Shown here in pieces: positions 1,643 to 37,775 of a DNA stretch of 37,775 nt. Source of the DNA: Candidatus Sumerlaeota bacterium (GTDB lineage Bacteria; Sumerlaeota; Sumerlaeia; JAFGJS01); the NCBI GenBank assembly GCA_016928995.1, contig JAFGJS010000030.1, positions 1 through 37,775 on the forward strand, read 5' to 3'. A program made the position numbers and the translations under genes. Under the pieces are notes generated by a model that was not told the DNA's origin, did not search any database, and saw only the letters and a program-made list of their open reading frames with translations. Numbering within the stretch: the stretch's first letter is position 1; each line of letters starts with the position of its first letter.

Positions 1643-2905
1643 TTGAACGGGAAGTTCTCTGACATGAGCCATCGAAGTTGCAAACCGGCTATGGCGATGC
1701 TGGCGTTATGCTGGCTCGGCGGAGTGTGTCTGCGCGCCGGCGCGACGACGATGGTGGAGGACATCCGTTGGGATTCCAAACCTGCCTATACCCGCTGCGT
1801 GGTCGAGCTCAGCGGTCCGGCCCAATATAAAGCCTATGATCGTTCCAATGACGGCTATGTGTATGTCGATCTGTTCGATGTGCGCGGCCAGCAGGAAAAT
1901 CTATCCATTTCCGTGGATGATGGCGTGGTCAAGGCGATCCTGGTCGTGCAGCACAAGGATCGTCAGATCCTGCGTTTGATTTTTTATCTCAAAATGAAAA
2001 CCCGTTTTAGTGTGCAAACGCTGGAAGATCCGCACCGGTTGATCGTGGATATCGAGCATCCGGCCGACGCCAGCCCGCCTGAAGAGGAGATCGCTCCCGC
2101 GGAAACCCAACCGAGTCTGCTCAACGCCGTGATGGGCGCTCCGCGCAAGAAAGTGGTTGTGATCGATCCGGGCCATGGCGGAAAAGATCCCGGCACAGTT
2201 TCCCGGATCAAGATCGACGGAAAAAAAATCGAAGAAAAGGATCTTGCTCTTAAAACTGCGCTTGAATTGAAGAAGCTGATCGACAAATCGCCCAACATGG
2301 AGGCGCGTCTCACGCGCGAGACTGATAAATATGTTTCGCTGGATGATCGCAACCGCATGGCCGAACATTTCAAGGGCGACCTTTATGTTTCGATCCACTA
2401 TAATGCCGGCAAAAACAGACAGGTGTCTGCGATCACTCGCGGCATGGAACTGTACTTCCTCAGTCCGGAGAAGACTCAGCAAGAATCCGAGCGTCTCCTG
2501 GGCGCGCTGAAGAGCACGGAGAAAAACAACGGCTCATCGAACCTCTCTCAGAATCCTAAACTGCAAAGCCTGCTGGAAAAGATGATCGACGAAAAACTCA
2601 ACCGCCAATTCCGGCTGAGCCGCTTGATGTGCCAGTACATGGAAGATGAGTTCAAGCAGGATAGTTATTTCGGCCAGTATTACCGCGGCATCAAGGACGC
2701 GGGTTTTCGCAGTTTGGTGCGGCAATACACCCGCCCCACGGTGCTGGTCGAGGTCGGCTATCTGACGCATAGCAAGGAGCTCGCTGAGATGGTCAAGCCG
2801 TCCAATCAGCGGTCAGCGGCGATTCATGTGTTTAATGCAATCAATCGATATTTTCATCATCAAGATCCAAACTTCAAACCGATGCGCATCAAGCTGCCTG
2901 AGTAG
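1643..2905 (+). CDS. N-acetylmuramoyl-L-alanine amidase (AMIN + Amidase_3)
   Basis: This periplasmic zinc amidase cleaves the amide bond between N-acetylmuramic acid and the stem peptide, as AmiA/B/C do during cell separation. A hydrophobic signal peptide lies near residues 15-33. An AMIN domain follows at about 37-130, which in relatives targets the septum or peptidoglycan. The Amidase_3 domain runs from about 170 to the end. Zinc and catalytic residues are visible: His in VVIDPGHGGKDPG, Glu in KKIEEKDLAL, His in VSIHYNA and Glu in VLVEVGYLTH. An insertion between the last two motifs (about residues 255-345) resembles the regulatory helix region of AmiB/C. The start is TTG at 1643, with GGAG 7 bases upstream; ATG at 1664 is an alternative that still keeps the signal peptide. 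nusB begins 34 bases downstream. Confidence 0.9.
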   Translation: MNGKFSDMSHRSCKPAMAMLALCWLGGVCLRAGATTMVEDIRWDSKPAYTRCVVELSGPAQYKAYDRSNDGYVYVDLFDVRGQQENLSISVDDGVVKAILVVQHKDRQILRLIFYLKMKTRFSVQTLEDPHRLIVDIEHPADASPPEEEIAPAETQPSLLNAVMGAPRKKVVVIDPGHGGKDPGTVSRIKIDGKKIEEKDLALKTALELKKLIDKSPNMEARLTRETDKYVSLDDRNRMAEHFKGDLYVSIHYNAGKNRQVSAITRGMELYFLSPEKTQQESERLLGALKSTEKNNGSSNLSQNPKLQSLLEKMIDEKLNRQFRLSRLMCQYMEDEFKQDSYFGQYYRGIKDAGFRSLVRQYTRPTVLVEVGYLTHSKELAEMVKPSNQRSAAIHVFNAINRYFHHQDPNFKPMRIKLPE

Positions 2906-2939
2906 GGCGGGGTGCGGCGGTGATCGGCGAGCGAGGGAT

Positions 2940-3422
2940 ATGGGCATCCGGCGAGTGGCCCGGCAACGGGCGCTTCAAATCTTATACGGGGTAGAGATAA
3001 CCGGCCAGCCGTTGACCGAGGCGGTGGAGGGTTTTCTGGCCGTGAGGGCGGAGCTGGAGTCGAACTCGAAGCCGATGGAGCAATTCACTTTCGATTTGTC
3101 CGAAAAATGTCTGGAACATCTGGGGGAGATCGACGCGCGGCTGAAAAGCGCGTTGATCAATTGGCGGTTTGAGCGGCTGAGCGCCACGGACCGGTTGATT
3201 TTGCGGCTGGGCTGCGCGGAGTTGCTTTTTTTCGACGACATTCCGCCGCGCGTCACGATCAACGAGTTCATCGAAATCGCGCGCAGTTTCGGCGACAACG
3301 AGTCGCCGCATTTCGTCAATGGCGTGTTGGACCGCATCGCCCGCGGGGAAAATTTTGATATGAGCAATATGCGTGAAAAGGTGCGTCTCGACGGCGCCGA
3401 AACCGGCCAGGAGACGCCTTGA
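2940..3422 (+). CDS. nusB: Transcription antitermination factor NusB
   Basis: NusB binds BoxA RNA with NusE/S10 and supports antitermination on rRNA operons. The 160-residue size fits the family. Visible signatures are the N-terminal RRVARQRALQILYGVE and the C-terminal helices with LSATDRLILRLGCAEL, the conserved PRVTINEFIEIARSF and the closing HFVNGVLDRIAR. The start ATG at 2940 begins MGIRRVARQ, the usual N-terminus; in-frame codons upstream would only add unrelated residues. The stop TGA overlaps the ATG of waaA, so the two are probably translationally coupled. Confidence 0.93.
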   Translation: MGIRRVARQRALQILYGVEITGQPLTEAVEGFLAVRAELESNSKPMEQFTFDLSEKCLEHLGEIDARLKSALINWRFERLSATDRLILRLGCAELLFFDDIPPRVTINEFIEIARSFGDNESPHFVNGVLDRIARGENFDMSNMREKVRLDGAETGQETP

Positions 3423-4809: not shown

Positions 4810-7038
4810 ATGCGAGCCAAACAAAAAAAAAGTGGTGAGTCGCATCGTTCCATCAATGAGCCGAAGGAAAAGGCTGATTCCTCGGACTCGCAGCTGACGT
4901 TGTCAAAACGGCGCAAATGGCTGTTCCGTCTGGCGGCGATGATTCTGCCCAGTTTGCTGTTGTTCGCGATGCTTGAAGTTGGATTGCGGCTGGGCGGCTT
5001 TGGTTATCCGACACAATTCATTGTCGGGCCAGACTCTCATGGCGTTTTTATGACGAACCGTTTTTTCGGATGGCGTTTTTTTCCTCACGCCATCGCGCGT
5101 GAACCGGTCTATCATGAGCTGACCGCCAAGCCTGACGGCGCGATCCGCATTTTCGTCCTGGGCGGATCGGCGGCGCAAGGCATACCTGAACCTTCATTCA
5201 GTTTTGGCGAGATCCTCGCAGTCATGCTGAGGGAACGTCATCCCGATACGCAGTTTGAAGTTGTGAATGCAGCCATGACAGCGATCAATTCGCATGTGGT
5301 CCGGGAAATCGCCCGCGACTGCGTCGAATATCAGCCGGATTTTTATGTCGTTTATATGGGGAACAATGAAGTCACCGGACCTTATGGTCCTGGCACAGTT
5401 TTTCAGCGCAGCATGATGAATTTGAGTTTCATCCGGGCAAGCATCTGGCTGAAGTCGACGCGCATCGCGCAATTGCTGCATCCGGTCGTCAGCATGTTTC
5501 ATGCCGGCGAAGCGCCGACGACATGGGAAGGCTTGCATATGTTTGTGCATAATCCCGTGGCGTCCGATGATCCGCGTTTGGAGGCGGTTTACCGGAATTT
5601 TCACCGGAACCTGAGCGACATATGCCGCATTGCGCGTATAGCCGGCGCTAATATTATTTTTTCCACTGTGGCCGTGAATCAGCGCGATTATCCACCGACG
5701 TTTTCGCAACACCGCGCCGATTTGAGCGACGATGAGTTGAGCCAGTGGGAATTGCATCAACAAAAAGGCGTTGAGTCGCAGGCGAAAGAAGATTGGGCGA
5801 TGGCGATTGAGCAGTATCAGGCGGCGATCCGGATCGACGATCGCTATGCGGAAACTCAATTTCGCCTCGGTCAATGTATGGAAGCCGCCGGACGTTTTGC
5901 TGAAGCCCGGGATTGCTTCAGCCTGGCTCGCGATCTGGATGCGTTGCGGTTTCGCGCCGATTCACGGATCAACGCCGTGATCCGCGACGCGGTAGATGAA
6001 AATGCTTCGGACAAGCTTCGTCTGGCGGATGCGGAGCAGGCTTTGCAGAGCAACGCCTTGGCGCCTCATGGCATCCCAGGACGTGAATTGTTTTATGAGC
6101 ATGTCCACCTGACTTTTAATGGCAATTATCTTGTCGCTCAAGCGGTCTTGGAACAAATTGAGGCGGTTTTGCCGAAGAACGTGCTCGCAGGTAAAACTCA
6201 AGCGCTTCCATCACGGCGTCAATGCGCGCAAGCGCTCGTGCTGACACCGTGGGATGAATATATGATGATCAGCAAAATCAGCGAGCTGATGTCGCTCCCG
6301 CCGTTTACCGATCAACTCGATCATGCAGCAAGGCAGGATGCGATGCGGAATAAAATGAAACAGCTATACCGGCAAGCGACAATGCCGCAAATGATTGAAG
6401 CCGTCCGCAAGTCCTATGAAGCCGCGATACATGACTCGCCGCGAGATTACAATCTGCGCTATCGGTTCGCCAATCTGGCGTCGAATTTTGGACACCCAGA
6501 GGTTGCCGCCAAGCACTTTCAATTTTTAGCCGAAATGCGGCCCTATTCGTTTGAAATTCACAACCGGCTTGCTTCTGTGCTGGATCTTTGCGGGAAAACG
6601 GAAGAGGCTCATGAGCAATATCGGATCATGCAAGATTTGGAGCCGCTTAATCCTGGATTGCATAACAACTACGGCGTCTTTTTAGCGCGACACGGCCAAC
6701 TTGATGAGGGCGTTGTTCATCTGCGGAAGGCGCTGCAACTGAATCCGGACTATATGGAAGCGTATGTCAACCTTGGCATTACCCTGGATAAACTCGATCA
6801 GCCTGAAGAGGCGATCGTTCAATTCAAGAAAGCCCTGGAACTCAATCCAGAAAACGCGAGTATCCATAACAAGCTGGGAGAGATTCTGGCGCGTCAGGAT
6901 AGAGCGGAGGAAGCGGTTTCTCATTTCGAGCAAGCGCTTGAACGAGAACCGCAGAATGCTCTGTTCAAGAAGAATTTAAGCGACGTTCGGGCAAGTTCCG
7001 TTTCTGGTGAAACCGCCAGGCAGCAACCTTCCAAATGA
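4810..7038 (+). CDS. Membrane-anchored SGNH-hydrolase-like protein with internal and C-terminal TPRs
   Basis: This 742-residue protein has a charged N-terminus, one transmembrane helix at about residues 36-60 and then an SGNH/GDSL-type esterase fold. Block I is IFVLGGSAAQG (Ser near 117), block II is in VVNAAMTAINSHVV, and block III is MGNNE near 184. The usual final DxxH is replaced by EHVH in FYEHVHLTFNGNY, near 430. Two TPR-like repeats (about residues 318-380) sit between blocks III and V, and a longer TPR array covers about 540-735. SGNH enzymes with this topology often remove or add acyl groups on envelope glycans, but the substrate here is unknown. I chose ATG at 4810 because GGAAAG lies 7 bases upstream; the in-frame ATG at 4780 has no such site and overlaps a possible -10 box. 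Confidence 0.75.
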   Translation: MRAKQKKSGESHRSINEPKEKADSSDSQLTLSKRRKWLFRLAAMILPSLLLFAMLEVGLRLGGFGYPTQFIVGPDSHGVFMTNRFFGWRFFPHAIAREPVYHELTAKPDGAIRIFVLGGSAAQGIPEPSFSFGEILAVMLRERHPDTQFEVVNAAMTAINSHVVREIARDCVEYQPDFYVVYMGNNEVTGPYGPGTVFQRSMMNLSFIRASIWLKSTRIAQLLHPVVSMFHAGEAPTTWEGLHMFVHNPVASDDPRLEAVYRNFHRNLSDICRIARIAGANIIFSTVAVNQRDYPPTFSQHRADLSDDELSQWELHQQKGVESQAKEDWAMAIEQYQAAIRIDDRYAETQFRLGQCMEAAGRFAEARDCFSLARDLDALRFRADSRINAVIRDAVDENASDKLRLADAEQALQSNALAPHGIPGRELFYEHVHLTFNGNYLVAQAVLEQIEAVLPKNVLAGKTQALPSRRQCAQALVLTPWDEYMMISKISELMSLPPFTDQLDHAARQDAMRNKMKQLYRQATMPQMIEAVRKSYEAAIHDSPRDYNLRYRFANLASNFGHPEVAAKHFQFLAEMRPYSFEIHNRLASVLDLCGKTEEAHEQYRIMQDLEPLNPGLHNNYGVFLARHGQLDEGVVHLRKALQLNPDYMEAYVNLGITLDKLDQPEEAIVQFKKALELNPENASIHNKLGEILARQDRAEEAVSHFEQALEREPQNALFKKNLSDVRASSVSGETARQQPSK

Positions 7039-7217
7039 TTCATGTGTTGATTCAAAGAACACCAGGATCGTAGTCGATCTGCATCGGTTCGTACTCGCCG
7101 GATTGCTTTGTTCGCTGGAAATGCCTTGGCGCTCGGTTTGCATAATAAAGAGAGTTTCAAAGATTCTTGCGGTATTGCATAGCGTAGACGGATCACAGAA
7201 TTCCGTGTGTTTTCGAT

Positions 7218-7300
7218 TCAATACCGCAACCGTGAGGGAGTGGCCCAACTGGCGTTGTGGCATGGATTTGCGGGCCACTCCCTCACGGTCGCGGTACTGA
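7218..7300. repeat. Long near-perfect inverted repeat (29-bp arms)
   Basis: The left arm 7218-7246 and right arm 7272-7300 are reverse complements at 27 of 29 positions, with a 25-base spacer. The arm cores contain GTGAGGGAGTGGCCC. The mismatches lie towards the outer ends. It lacks a T-run on either side, so it does not look like a simple terminator. The shape fits a REP/MITE-like non-coding mobile repeat, but I saw only one copy in this window, so that class is an inference. Confidence 0.7.
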
Positions 7301-7434
7301 TTAGATCGTTTCTCGAATGCAATGGCTTAATACAGTAGATATTTGTCTCTAGCAGATTGAGATCGTACTTTCGAGAGATGCGCGATGTTGGTTGGAGCTT
7401 CGTGCGCGCTGTCGTTATGGGCGGGATTGCGTTC

Positions 7435-7471
7435 AAGAAAAAGACGCGCCGCAGATCTTCCGCGACGCGTC
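7435..7471 (-). terminator. Rho-independent terminator of the giant secreted gene
   Basis: Read on the minus strand, GACGCG (7471-7466) and CGC (7464-7462) pair with GCG (7452-7450) and CGCGTC (7448-7443) around a 9-base loop, with one internal mismatch. The stem is followed directly by TTTTTCTT (7442-7435). It lies 80-115 bases after the stop at 7551. Confidence 0.75.
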
Positions 7472-7503
7472 GTTGTCATTTCAAATCATCAGTAAGGTTT
7501 TGC

Positions 7504-7535
7504 GACATCGCGCGAGAATGAACTCGCGCGATGTC
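7504..7535. terminator. 13-bp perfect hairpin just after the giant gene
   Basis: GACATCGCGCGAG (7504-7516) is the exact reverse complement of 7523-7535, with a six-base loop. On the minus strand no T-run follows; on the plus strand only TGTTTG follows. It probably protects the 3' end of the minus-strand mRNA or acts as an auxiliary bidirectional terminator. Confidence 0.45.
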
Positions 7536-7550
7536 TGTTTGTGCATAACC

Positions 7551-10500
7551 TTATTCGAACAGTGTCCAGAGGGATTCGACGGACGACGGATCGAATGTTT
7601 CCGTTACGAAATAGGTTTCATTCGGATTCGGCGTTCCGCCGGCCAGAGCGCGTGAGAACATGTCGTACGCTTCAGCCGTACTGGACAATTCGATTCCAAG
7701 AACGCCCAGCGCCGTGCCAGGATCCACCGAAACATAATAGGTGGCGCCAAAGCCCAGGATGCTGGCGATGGAAGCGCCGCCTTGCGTGGCGTCGAAGTCG
7801 GAGACATCGACTCCGGTCAACGCATCGCTGAAGGTGACCATGAACGTCATGCCTTCTTCGACCGTCTTGTTGTACGTCGGGACAAGCGGGTCGTAGCGCG
7901 TGACGGATGTGATCACCGGATCGGACTTGTCGATCGCGGTCCAGTTGCCATAGATGTCGCCGTTGCCCACGCCGTTCAGCACAGCAGTGCCGACGAAGGT
8001 TTCGACTCGGTTCATCACAACGTTGTCAACCCCCATGAAGGATCGAGAGGCATACTCACTGCCACTTGTAGTGGAATCGATATTGGTGAACCGGATGCCC
8101 AGCAGATCGCCGGCATAAGATGGTGAAGCCGGGATCGTCCAAGTTGTTAATTGATTCGCCCAAGCGCCGGTTGCGGCAGTCTGTGAGCTAATCAGCGTTT
8201 CCGTGGAAAGAGCGGTGTTCCATGCATAGAGTTCGACCATGCAGGATTCAGGATCCCACACGCCATCTGCGGACCAGCCGGCAAGGGTGTCGAAGGACAC
8301 CTCGTAATAATCGCCGCCTGCGATGACATGATCCGTCACCTGATAGCAATACCCCTGCATGTAACCGATAGTCGAATCGAATCCGTTTTGAAGATAGCCG
8401 TTGCTGTTCTCAACACCGGAGTCCGTTAAGAACGGGCTATGCCACCCGGCGACATCGGAGTCGTATCCACTGGTCCAAAGAGCGACGCCGCCATTGAGAT
8501 CCTCAAAACTCGGATTGACCAGGGTGATCGATGTTGCTGCGCCCATTTCACTCAAGCCGAAATCATCAACACACATGATGCTCCATTGAGTGCCCACATT
8601 TGTCACACGAATGCCCAAATTTTCGCCATCATATGTCGCTGTTGAGGGAACCGTGAAATCCAATGTACGCATCGCATAGACGCCATCGGTGCATGCAAAT
8701 GTTTGAGTCGTAACGACCGTCGATGCATCACCGGCATAGAGCATGATTTCCGTCACAGAATATGGATCCGAAGAAACTAGATTCATATTCCAGAAAGTCA
8801 GATGGTACTGATCGCCAATTGCGATGGGATGCTCAGTGGTTTGCTCAGCATAGCACTCTGTACCGCCATTACCAACAGTGTCTTTCATGATAAAAGCGTC
8901 GTATGTGCCATCTGGTGAAGAGGTACGCCAATTGTCGTGACGGCCTGTGTCACGCCATGCAGGACTGCTCCAGCCAGGCACACAATCCCAATCAAATCCG
9001 CGTCGAACTGCAACATTTCCCCCATTAACATTTTGATTCAAGAAAGAGGGATTCTCCACAGTGATCGGATACTCGTTGCGGATTGTTTGCTGAATAATGG
9101 TGTCGTCATCTTCCAGCACCAGGTTCAGTGAGCCGTCCGACGCGGCGCTGGTGTCGATCGCAACGTCATAGGCTTGGTCCGTCACGGTTTCCGTGACTGT
9201 CGTGATTGCGGCGCCAGTGGCGGTGCCGGCCAGGCTCAACAAGGTCTGGCTGAAGCCGTCCACGGGTTCCGTGAAGGTGACGGAGTAGGTCACAACGTCT
9301 CCATCGGTGACCGGAGCGTCGTCCGTCCAGAGGGTGACGCCGATCAGGGTGGAGTCATAGGTGACCGAAGGATTGCCGGTCGAGGCATAGTTGATGCGTC
9401 CCAAGCCGCTCACGCAGACGCCGGCCGGGATGGTCGGGGCCAGCGTGCCGGTGGTGGCGCCTGTGACGCCTGTAACCAGGACTTCGTACAGTGTGCCTGC
9501 TTGGTTGAGTGCGTTGAGCGCGACGGTCAGCGAGGCGCTGGTCAGTGTGCCGTTCCACGCGACTTCGGATGCCTCTAAGCCGGTGACCGGCTCGGAGAAC
9601 TCAACGTTAAAGGCGATCGGCAGGGCCGCCGTGGGACTTGCGACGTTGCTGCCCAAGGTGATTTCGCAAGTGGGCCGCTCGCCGCGGATTTCCGTCGTGT
9701 CGCCAGTGCCTTCGATGTTAACTTCGACAGGTGTGTTGAGTGAATTGGATACGACCGTGACCGTTGCGGAGTATTCCACGCGGAAACCTGCTGCCGGAGG
9801 CACGAAGGAAACCACCATCGTGGTGCCTTCGCCTGCAGCCAGGGTGAGCGGCATGGCGGGCGGAGAAGTCATTGTGATCGCGGAATCGCCAGCGAAGGTG
9901 ATGCTCGATATCACAGTTGTCTCCGTGCCGCCAGCGCCGATTCTCAGGGTCACTGTGTCGGAGGTGCCTTCAGTTACGACGCCGAAGTCGATTGATGCAG
10001 GATTGGCCGAGGTGTAATTGACCAAAGACTCGAACGCGCCGATGTCGGGTCTGCCGATGCGGGTGACACCGTCAAAGTCGACGGCGGGCGCCGCGTCATC
10101 AGCCACGCCTGCGTTGATGATGGGCGAAAGGCCGCTGATTCTGTAATTGCGATTGGCTTTATCCGCGAATGTCACAGCGTCATAAACCGGACGCGGATCG
10201 ACGAGGCCGTCATAGATGCCGTTCGGCGGATCGACCGAGCCGTCAGCGCCTTCGTACAGGTTGTTGCTGACGTAGGCGTTGTCCAGCACGTCGGCCCATG
10301 TGTTGATGGCCATGTCGAAATCGACGAAGATGTTGTTGAGCACGACTTCGTGTCTGGTGTTGTCATTCTCTTCCAGCCAGAGAGCCGAGTGGACGACGCC
10401 TGGATCAAAATCGACGCCGTTGCCGACAAACGTGTTGTTAATGACCGTCATGCCGTCGGTGTCGCGGATGCAGGCGCCCGCGTCAGCCCACGGACCGGCT

Positions 10501-31174: not shown

Positions 31175-31230
31175 TGAGAAATTTGAGCCAATAATTTCTC
31201 AGACCTATACAAGTTTCTTGACATTTCTCA
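31175..31230. promoter_or_regulatory. Three TGAGAAAT boxes at the regulator promoter
   Basis: TGAGAAATT at 31175-31183 and AATTTCTCA at 31193-31201 form a perfect nine-base inverted repeat with nine bases between. A third copy, ATTTCTCA, occupies 31223-31230, directly after the -35 box. Boxes 2 and 3 are direct repeats 29 bases apart. The pattern suggests a repressor site, perhaps for the adjacent HTH-EIIA regulator. Confidence 0.5.
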
Positions 31231-31246
31231 AAATGATCAGTATATT
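31218..31246 (+). promoter_or_regulatory. Strong sigma-70 promoter of the regulator/Ehr-like operon
   Basis: TTGACA (31218-31223) and TATATT (31241-31246) are separated by exactly 17 bases. Transcription should start near 31253, about 70 bases before the ATG at 31325. The whole downstream gene run has only overlaps or gaps of a few bases, so this is likely the operon promoter. Confidence 0.75.
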
Positions 31247-31324
31247 CCCAATATTCATGATTGTATTGCGATTTTGCGTTGGCGGATCAGAATTCATACT
31301 TTGTTGAATAAAGGAGCGTTAATT

Positions 31325-32014
31325 ATGCGCTTGAAGGTGCGTGATGCGGCCCGGCTCTTGGAAGTGTCGGACAAAACGATCTACCGCTGGGTCAGCCAGG
31401 GCCGGCTTCCGGCGTATAAAATCAACGAGCAGATACGCTTCAACCAGGCGGAATTGCAGGAATGGGCGGCGGCCCAAAAGATCAATGTGAATGCCGGCGT
31501 CCTGGAGCAAGACAAGGAAGCCGGAAAGGCGCCAATCGGTCTGGCGCAGGCTCTGAATCAGGGCGGGATTTATTACCGCATCGAAGGCCGGGACCCGAAA
31601 TCCGTGCTGACCTCAATGGTCAAGGTGGTGTCGATTCCAGAAGAAGTCGACCGTGATTTCCTGCTGCAGATGCTGCTCGCGCGGGAATCGCTCGCATCGA
31701 CTGGAATTGGCAGTGGCATCTCGATTCCACATCCGCGCAATCCGATCATCACCCACCGCGATCATGCGATTGTGTCATTATGCTTTTTGGAAAAGCCGGT
31801 TGATTTCAACGCGCTGGATGGAGCGCCGGTGCATACTCTTTTTTTAATGCTCAGTCCGACGCTTCAATTGCATCTGCGTCTGATCTCCCGGGTGGCTCAC
31901 GCCGTGCATGATCCGCGCTTCATGAAACTGATGCGAGAGCAGGCCACACGTGAGAAGATCTTGCGGTTGGCGGCGGAGATTGACGCCAGCATCGAAGAAG
32001 CCGTCCGCGAATGA
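31325..32014 (+). CDS. Fusion regulator: excisionase-type HTH + PTS EIIA (fructose/mannitol type)
   Basis: This 229-residue protein joins a DNA-binding domain to a phosphotransferase EIIA domain. Residues 1-50 hold a MerR/excisionase-like helix-turn-helix (DAARLLEVSDKTIYRWVSQG, then RLPAYKINEQIRFNQAELQEW). A linker runs to about 75. The EIIA-Fru-like domain then covers about 80-229, with the phospho-acceptor His in GSGISIPHPRNP (about residue 136), a central VSLCFLEKPVDFNALDG and the closing LHLRLISRVAHAVHDPRF. No EIIB/EIIC transport genes are near, so the EIIA is probably a sensor of PTS phosphorylation state, as EIIA-Ntr is. ATG at 31325 follows AAAGGAG; the stop overlaps the next ATG (ATGA). 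Confidence 0.85.
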   Translation: MRLKVRDAARLLEVSDKTIYRWVSQGRLPAYKINEQIRFNQAELQEWAAAQKINVNAGVLEQDKEAGKAPIGLAQALNQGGIYYRIEGRDPKSVLTSMVKVVSIPEEVDRDFLLQMLLARESLASTGIGSGISIPHPRNPIITHRDHAIVSLCFLEKPVDFNALDGAPVHTLFLMLSPTLQLHLRLISRVAHAVHDPRFMKLMREQATREKILRLAAEIDASIEEAVRE

Positions 32015-37027: not shown

Positions 37028-37775
37028 ATGGCTGGGCAATCCATCGTCCTTCGCAACAATCAGCCGGTCGCGCTGACGGAGATCCCTCGCCTCTCGCTGG
37101 ATGCATTTCGCGCATGGACCGTTTCTCAGGTCGAAGCGGGGAAACGCCTGGCGGTGTTATGTTGTTTTCCTCAGATTCATGGATTTTTGCTTTGCGCCGT
37201 GCTGGCTGATGACGCCAATGGATGGCTGGAACTGGCTGGCGCGGAAGCGGCGCAGGAATTTCCTTCGCTGACTCCGCAATGTGTGCAGGCGCAATTATTC
37301 GAGCGGGAAATTTTTGAAACTTATGGTTTGCGGCCCGTAGATCACCCCTGGCTGAAGCCGGTGCGTTTCCCGTGTGCGAGTCATCATCCCAATCATAAGA
37401 TCGGCGAGATGGATTATTTCCAGGTTGAAGGCCCGGAAGTGCACGAGGTGGCGGTCGGTCCCGTGCATGCAGGCGTGATTGAGCCGGGACATTTCCGTTT
37501 CCAATGCCATGGCGAGCGGGTTTTTCACCTGGAGATTTCGCTGGGCTATCAACATCGCGGCGTCATGCAGGCGTTGCTTCAAGCCTCGGAATCCCAGCGG
37601 CGTCATTTGATGGAAACCGCGGCCGGCGACGCCACCGCCGGCCATACGACGGCTTATTGCAACGCGCTGGATGCGCTGGCCGGGCGCCAGGCGCCGGCCC
37701 GGGCGCATGCCATCCGGGGCATTGCGCTCGAATTTGAGCGTATCGCCTGCCATATCGGCGATCTCGGGGCGATGG
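37028..37775 (+). CDS. HyfG/EhrL-like NuoC-NuoD fusion, first NiFe cysteine pair absent (3' end outside window)
   Basis: I translated 249 codons from ATG 37028. Residues 1-110 are a NuoC-like domain ending FEREIFETYGLRPVDHPWLK. Then comes the NuoD/hydrogenase large-subunit fold: VGPVHAGVIEPGHFRF, the conserved LEISLGYQHRGVMQALL, and ETAAGDATAGHTTAYCNALD. In active group 4 [NiFe] hydrogenases this last place reads RVCGICGFAHS-like, with two cysteines holding the metals. Here both are alanine (Ala199, Ala202), while the following His206 and AYC are kept. EFERIACHIGDLGAM follows as usual. The gene closes a B-C-E-F-G order with no HyfD. The C-terminal CxxC cannot be seen. The best label is an energy-converting-hydrogenase-related (Ehr) large subunit. 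Confidence 0.85.
   Translation, partial: MAGQSIVLRNNQPVALTEIPRLSLDAFRAWTVSQVEAGKRLAVLCCFPQIHGFLLCAVLADDANGWLELAGAEAAQEFPSLTPQCVQAQLFEREIFETYGLRPVDHPWLKPVRFPCASHHPNHKIGEMDYFQVEGPEVHEVAVGPVHAGVIEPGHFRFQCHGERVFHLEISLGYQHRGVMQALLQASESQRRHLMETAAGDATAGHTTAYCNALDALAGRQAPARAHAIRGIALEFERIACHIGDLGAM

Follow-up and report, generated by a model that had tools for sequence, protein, structure and literature searches.

A hydrogenase-4-like complex without NiFe ligands in a Candidatus Sumerlaeota bacterium: an Ehr complex with a candidate PTS-linked regulator

Introduction

What does a hydrogenase-4-like complex do if its large subunit cannot bind nickel and iron? This question is raised by a contig from a Candidatus Sumerlaeota bacterium (GCA_016928995.1, JAFGJS010000030.1). 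We analyzed its first 37,775 nucleotides (the window), which end within a gene for a fusion of NuoC-like and NuoD-like domains. The original prediction, made from the window alone, was that this large subunit has lost its first pair of NiFe ligands and belongs to an Ehr-type complex. (Ehr is short for energy-converting hydrogenase-related; PMC10284858 cites Marreiros et al. 2013 for these complexes.) Here, we call the large subunit EhrL and the small subunit EhrS, and we refer to the Sumerlaeota genome as the query. The features of the locus are listed in Table 1.

Table 1. Features of the Ehr locus, in window positions or, beyond the window, in positions on the full contig (C73)
Feature	Position	Strand	Basis
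Sigma70-like promoter TTGACA-N17-TATATT before HTH-EIIA, operon promoter candidate	31218..31246	+	consensus match only
HTH-EIIA, fusion of HTH_17 (excisionase/MerR-like) and PTS_EIIA_2	31325..32014	+	Pfam: HTH_17 in front (58 bits), PTS_EIIA_2 behind (76 bits)
HyfB-like antiporter-type membrane subunit, 662 aa	32011..33999	+	profile matches; E140, K217, K248, K345 kept
HyfC/NuoH-like membrane subunit, 308 aa	33996..34922	+	profile matches, alignment
HyfE-like membrane subunit, 222 aa	34889..35557	+	81 bits, below curated cut-off; position conserved in relatives
HyfF-like antiporter-type membrane subunit, 487 aa	35562..37025	+	profile matches; E131, K220, K338 kept
EhrL, HyfG-like NuoC-NuoD fusion without NiFe ligands, 495 aa	37028..37775 in the window; complete at C73:37028-38515	+	sequence, domains, family alignment
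EhrS small subunit, 257 aa	C73:38537-39310, beyond the window	after ehrL	domain matches

EhrL lacks all four NiFe ligands

The reading frame of ehrL is open to the end of the window, and the gene is completed further along the contig (105,457 bp in all). The first NiFe motif of EhrL, METAAGDATAGHTTAYC, gives A199, G200, D201, and A202, followed by H206, exactly as originally read. In an alignment to HycE and HyfG from E. coli, AAGDATAGH stands opposite VCGICGFAH. At the other end of the protein, the last residues of EhrL (DFPLCNKSFNLSYCGFDL) stand opposite DPCYSCTDR, which means that the second ligand pair is lost as well. Where HycE and HyfG have DPCYSCTDR and then a 32-residue tail, EhrL has NLSYCGFDL and then the stop codon. 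Extending the gene to its stop and looking for DPCxxC, as the original prediction had proposed, thus turned up N-L-S-Y-C-G instead, with S489 and G492 in the ligand positions. EhrL retains no ligand at any of the four positions, and it has neither of the two motifs of group 4 NiFe hydrogenases (RxCGxC and DPCxxC). It also lacks a tail that could be cleaved (length 0). In the alignment, the C terminus of EhrL coincides with the end of NuoD. Mature hydrogenases end at this same point, where their tail is cut off during maturation.

Is this specific to the query? We scanned 84,980 species genomes, which gave at least 545 relatives of EhrL, and kept 80 of these. These come from Acidobacteriota, Planctomycetota, Verrucomicrobiota, Lentisphaerota, Elusimicrobiota, Omnitrophota, Zixibacteria, KSB1, Myxococcota, Desulfobacteria, Geobacteraceae, Spirochaetota, Synergistota, Methylomirabilota, Riflebacteria, and other groups. 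Across the 82 aligned family members, from many phyla, not one NiFe-ligand cysteine is kept. Position 199 is alanine in 77 and serine in 5; position 202 is threonine in 75, serine in 4, and alanine in 3, so the query has a minority form. Positions 489 and 492 are serine and glycine in all 82. The motifs A/S-G-D-T/S/A...H and NLSYCGxDL are nearly invariant, and E152, C160, H176, G200, D201, H206, K484, S489, Y490, G492, D494, and L495 are fully so. Judging by this alignment, the loss of the ligands is a strict trait of the family, accompanied by a new invariant motif, and not local decay. It is also less surprising than it first seems, since it is the norm for the family and was described before for Ehr. 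A pseudogene of a NiFe hydrogenase, or a sequencing artefact confined to the query genome, found no support: the reading frame is intact and relatives from many phyla have the same motif. We consider this explanation refuted by the family alignment and give it practically no credence.

In a phylogenetic tree with the large subunits of hydrogenases and Nuo, as originally suggested, EhrL forms its own clade apart from NuoD and from HycE/HyfG (support 100/100), on a very long branch; the long branches make the deep join to the other groups unsure. Within the clade, the query clusters with a sequence from Synergistaceae (support 100/98), which suggests horizontal transfer.

In five loci (L050, L057, L059, L074, and L085), the open frame that contains ehrL extends far upstream of the gene and totals 850-980 amino acids. 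These loci have a separate match to HyfF, which favors long open frames in GC-rich DNA over fusions of hyfF and ehrL.

The other subunits identify the complex as Ehr

The original prediction had proposed a search downstream for a small subunit, and EhrS lies just beyond the window. It is a HyfH-like ferredoxin domain with two clusters, fused to a HyfI/NuoB-like domain. The cysteines for the proximal cluster, as in small subunits of the NuoB/hydrogenase type, are present (C139, C142, C206, and C236), and the iron-sulfur cluster cysteines are conserved in the relatives. (In the query's EhrS, at 2538-3311 of locus L003, the first ferredoxin motif reads CxxCxxxCxxxCP instead of the family's CxxxCxxCxxxCP, a shift of one cysteine by a single residue.) Both antiporter-type subunits were predicted to keep their ion-pathway residues, and our alignments of HyfB and HyfF agree: the residues in Table 1 are conserved in the relatives and in E. 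coli. The second lysine of HyfF is absent from the query, as it is from HyfF of E. coli. The six core genes have a constant order in relatives that span more than 15 named bacterial groups.

EhrL is homologous to the large subunit of group 4 NiFe hydrogenases and to NuoD, has a HycE-like fold (see below), and lacks both CxxC ligand motifs, and it is encoded with a small subunit and four membrane subunits (antiporter-like, NuoH-like, and HyfE-like). By these sequence features, the Ehr label stands, and the complex is a new instance of a published family. Ehr complexes without NiFe ligands have been described (PMC6349859, PMC4378227, PMC10284858), and Ehr was seen as a proteomic cluster in Geobacter (PMC7894505, PMC8691401). 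Ehr from Geobacter sulfurreducens (Ech-hydrogenase-related, GSU0739-0745) similarly combines large and small subunits that resemble those of hydrogenases with HyfE-like and antiporter-like membrane subunits, and it has no NiFe ligands. We found no difference between the query's large subunit and published Ehr. A relative from Geobacteraceae (L093) has the query's gene set, but with two hyfB-like genes. Eight other Ehr operons also have two hyfB-like genes (L055, L063, L074, L082, L085, L086, L107, and L114), which recalls Geobacter Ehr, for which two NuoL-like subunits are implied (EhrA-1).

Among well-studied complexes, E. coli hydrogenase-4 and formate hydrogenlyase are the closest: HyfG and HycE are the best full-length matches to EhrL in both structure and sequence, and the counterparts of HyfB, C, E, and F are shared. 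Unlike hydrogenase-4, the query's complex lacks the four NiFe cysteines, the cleaved tail, and, in the operon, genes for HyfD, HyfA, and HyfJ, and its small subunit is fused to a ferredoxin-like subunit. EhrL shares the NuoCD fold and the absence of NiFe with NuoC/D of complex I. However, in the alignment it lacks NuoD's quinone-site motif DR(L/M)DYL and DR at the C terminus, and EhrS has the CxxC spacing of hydrogenases instead of the tandem cysteines of complex I.

The query genome also encodes genuine hydrogenases. Contig C11 (L125) has an Hdr/Mvh-like NiFe hydrogenase cluster with hyp genes, in which hypD adjoins the hydrogenase. Another match to NiFeSe_Hases, on C134 (L126), lies in a cluster with NuoE/NuoF-like (Hox-like) genes. 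The original prediction had named a C-terminal CxxC together with hypA-F as signs against it. The CxxC is absent; hyp genes are present in the genome, but they are explained by the hydrogenase on C11 and are not diagnostic for the Ehr complex. We therefore rejected them as a sign of a working hydrogenase at the Ehr locus.

A candidate regulator at the start of the operon

The gene before hyfB encodes a DNA-binding domain fused to a PTS EIIA domain (HTH-EIIA), and its stop codon overlaps the start of hyfB. HTH-EIIA likely starts at the ATG at 31325, which has a ribosome-binding site (AAAGGAG), instead of at the TTG at 31274 chosen by the ORF caller. The phosphorylatable histidine of EIIA is kept (H153 if numbered from 31274, in SIPHPR), as it is in 53 of 54 relatives. 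Elsewhere in the query genome, genes for HPr and EI are adjacent on C20 and there is a separate ptsN on C54.

HTH-EIIA is directly before hyfB in 49 of the 56 relatives with room upstream (52 if mis-called starts are allowed), but this count overstates the link to Ehr, as the relatives were chosen by identity to the query. We also examined a sample of 386 genomes, of which 47 encode EhrL (E up to 1e-60) and 21 have a strong match to HTH-EIIA (E up to 1e-30). EhrL was present in 16 of the 21 genomes with HTH-EIIA and in 31 of the 365 others (p = 2e-12). In all 16, both genes are close together on one contig. Two further HTH-EIIA genes lie where a contig ends, and hyfB follows one of the two. 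Among EhrL genomes with at least 46% identity and room upstream, HTH-EIIA is beside Ehr in about 16 of 25 and missing there from 9; only 1 of 20 more distant ones has it. HTH-EIIA is thus not essential to Ehr. (In one rearranged operon, L149 on G061:C6, HTH-EIIA and hyfB are downstream of ehrS, but still adjacent.)

Three HTH-EIIA genes are elsewhere. Two are beside ptsN in what, by eye, look like chlamydial genomes. The third (L133, about 5815-8273, on contig C25 of genome G106, which lacks EhrL) overlaps a gene for an apparent ClC-type chloride channel, which looks like a second ion-transport partner for this type of regulator.

Does HTH-EIIA have its own operator? We searched the 330 nt that precede HTH-EIIA genes in two ways, by counting k-mers and by unbiased motif discovery, and both yielded tATGTCCa.a.TTGTCCAAt, with two direct half-sites and a 10-bp period. 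The direct repeat WTGTCC-N4-WTGTCC is at the promoter of about half of the HTH-EIIA genes. Relative to the codon for the conserved Leu20, most good candidate sites are 44-76 nt upstream, where they coincide with a TTGACA-type promoter or follow it closely. We counted 12 exact copies of TGTCC-N5-TGTCC in these upstream regions (0.015 expected); the rest of the same loci, 2.3 million strand-bases, has two, and ten Ehr operons without HTH-EIIA have none. From this position and co-occurrence, we infer that HTH-EIIA binds the repeat. It appears that an Ehr operon often begins with a PTS-type switch protein that has its own DNA control site. The query's own HTH-EIIA promoter has no match to the consensus operator; we dismissed its best match, 210 nt upstream of the Leu20 codon, as misplaced. 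We rejected sigma54 control of the operon, as there were no strict sites in 54 upstream regions.

HTH-EIIA and its operator are unmentioned in the open papers on Ehr that we examined. Nor did we find a link from Ehr or hydrogenase-type operons to EIIA or PtsN in open papers (the founding Ehr papers, Coppi and Marreiros, were outside that search), and the novelty of this regulator is unproven.

What might Ehr do?

Our preferred reading, for which belief and doubt seem to us about balanced, is that Ehr is a ferredoxin-fed, ion-pumping oxidoreductase that does not act on hydrogen and is under PTS-linked control. Electrons would enter at the ferredoxin-like domain of EhrS, donated by reduced ferredoxin or another donor of similarly low potential. 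From there they would travel via the NuoB-like proximal cluster to the remodelled pocket of EhrL (E152, H176, G200-D201, H206, and the C-terminal KSFxLSYCGxDL), where an acceptor, probably not a quinone, would be reduced. The membrane subunits (HyfB, C, E, and F) would use this redox step to move protons or sodium ions. HTH-EIIA, encoded by the first gene of the operon, would make transcription of the operon depend on PTS phosphorylation.

Besides the six core genes, no family recurs as a neighbor within 9 kb in 80 loci, and we rejected a dedicated electron-donor module near Ehr. Ferredoxin-fed complexes of the Mbh/Ech type likewise have no dedicated dehydrogenase module. Pyruvate/2-oxoacid:ferredoxin oxidoreductase is encoded in 46 of the 47 EhrL genomes, but with 352 of all 386 genomes encoding it (no enrichment, p = 0.10), it is too common to be a marker for a ferredoxin donor. 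The absence of a recurring oxidoreductase, including formate dehydrogenase, also argues against coupling to formate dehydrogenase, although the enzyme could be encoded elsewhere. Such coupling was proposed for Margulisbacteria/Saganbacteria (PMC6349859) and is suggested by the induction of Ehr subunits by formate in Geobacter (PMC7894505); we think it rather improbable here.

Somewhat less improbable, but still unlikely, is a complex I-like pump in which EhrS relays electrons from ferredoxin to a quinone that is bound where EhrL, EhrS, and the HyfC/NuoH-like subunit meet. In an AlphaFold model of a relative that is 58% identical to the query (L035; mean pLDDT 86), the best match in PDB is the HycE-like 7z0s_E (Z 38.7 over 477 residues), to which phmmer also matches EhrL itself (E = 2.9e-41). 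The 49-kDa/NuoD subunits of complex I match almost as strongly (Z 34-36). Also, UbiA-type prenyltransferases are found in 42 of the 47 EhrL genomes, and the query genome has Nuo as well. But EhrL lacks the complex I motifs described above, and 5 of the 47 genomes have no match to UbiA-type prenyltransferases. Three of these are at least 94% complete (G298, 100%; G294, 97%; G276, 94%), which disfavors a quinone as the general acceptor, with the caveat that in draft genomes the enzyme may seem absent because of assembly gaps or because it has diverged. Finally, Ehr could be degenerate, or purely an ion-transporting antiporter module with a vestigial redox arm. The lost NiFe ligands would fit, as would the low AlphaFold confidence of the pseudo-active-site segments, the lowest in the model. 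Yet no part of EhrL is more conserved than these segments, and EhrS has conserved iron-sulfur ligands as well; we find this idea very hard to credit. The low confidence might instead reflect a missing ligand or partner subunit, or a shallow alignment.

Returning to the ferredoxin-fed pump, we tentatively propose, with rather more doubt than for the pump itself, that a large branch of Ehr forms a PTS regulon. HTH-EIIA would bind the 10-bp-period repeat over its own promoter and tie expression of a NiFe-less ion-pumping complex, whose acceptor is not a quinone, to the state of phosphoenolpyruvate and the PTS. The linked regulator and candidate operator give a concrete handle, as knowing which signal induces the operon would point to the purpose of Ehr. 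The invariant motif of EhrL (GD-T/S...H and KSFxLSYCGxDL), together with the genomes without UbiA, narrows the chemistry to test.

EhrL also has conserved cysteines that are specific to Ehr (C160, C262, C277, C482, and C491). In the AlphaFold model, C262 and C277 are on one helix, 15 residues apart. We considered whether these five cysteines might form a metal site.
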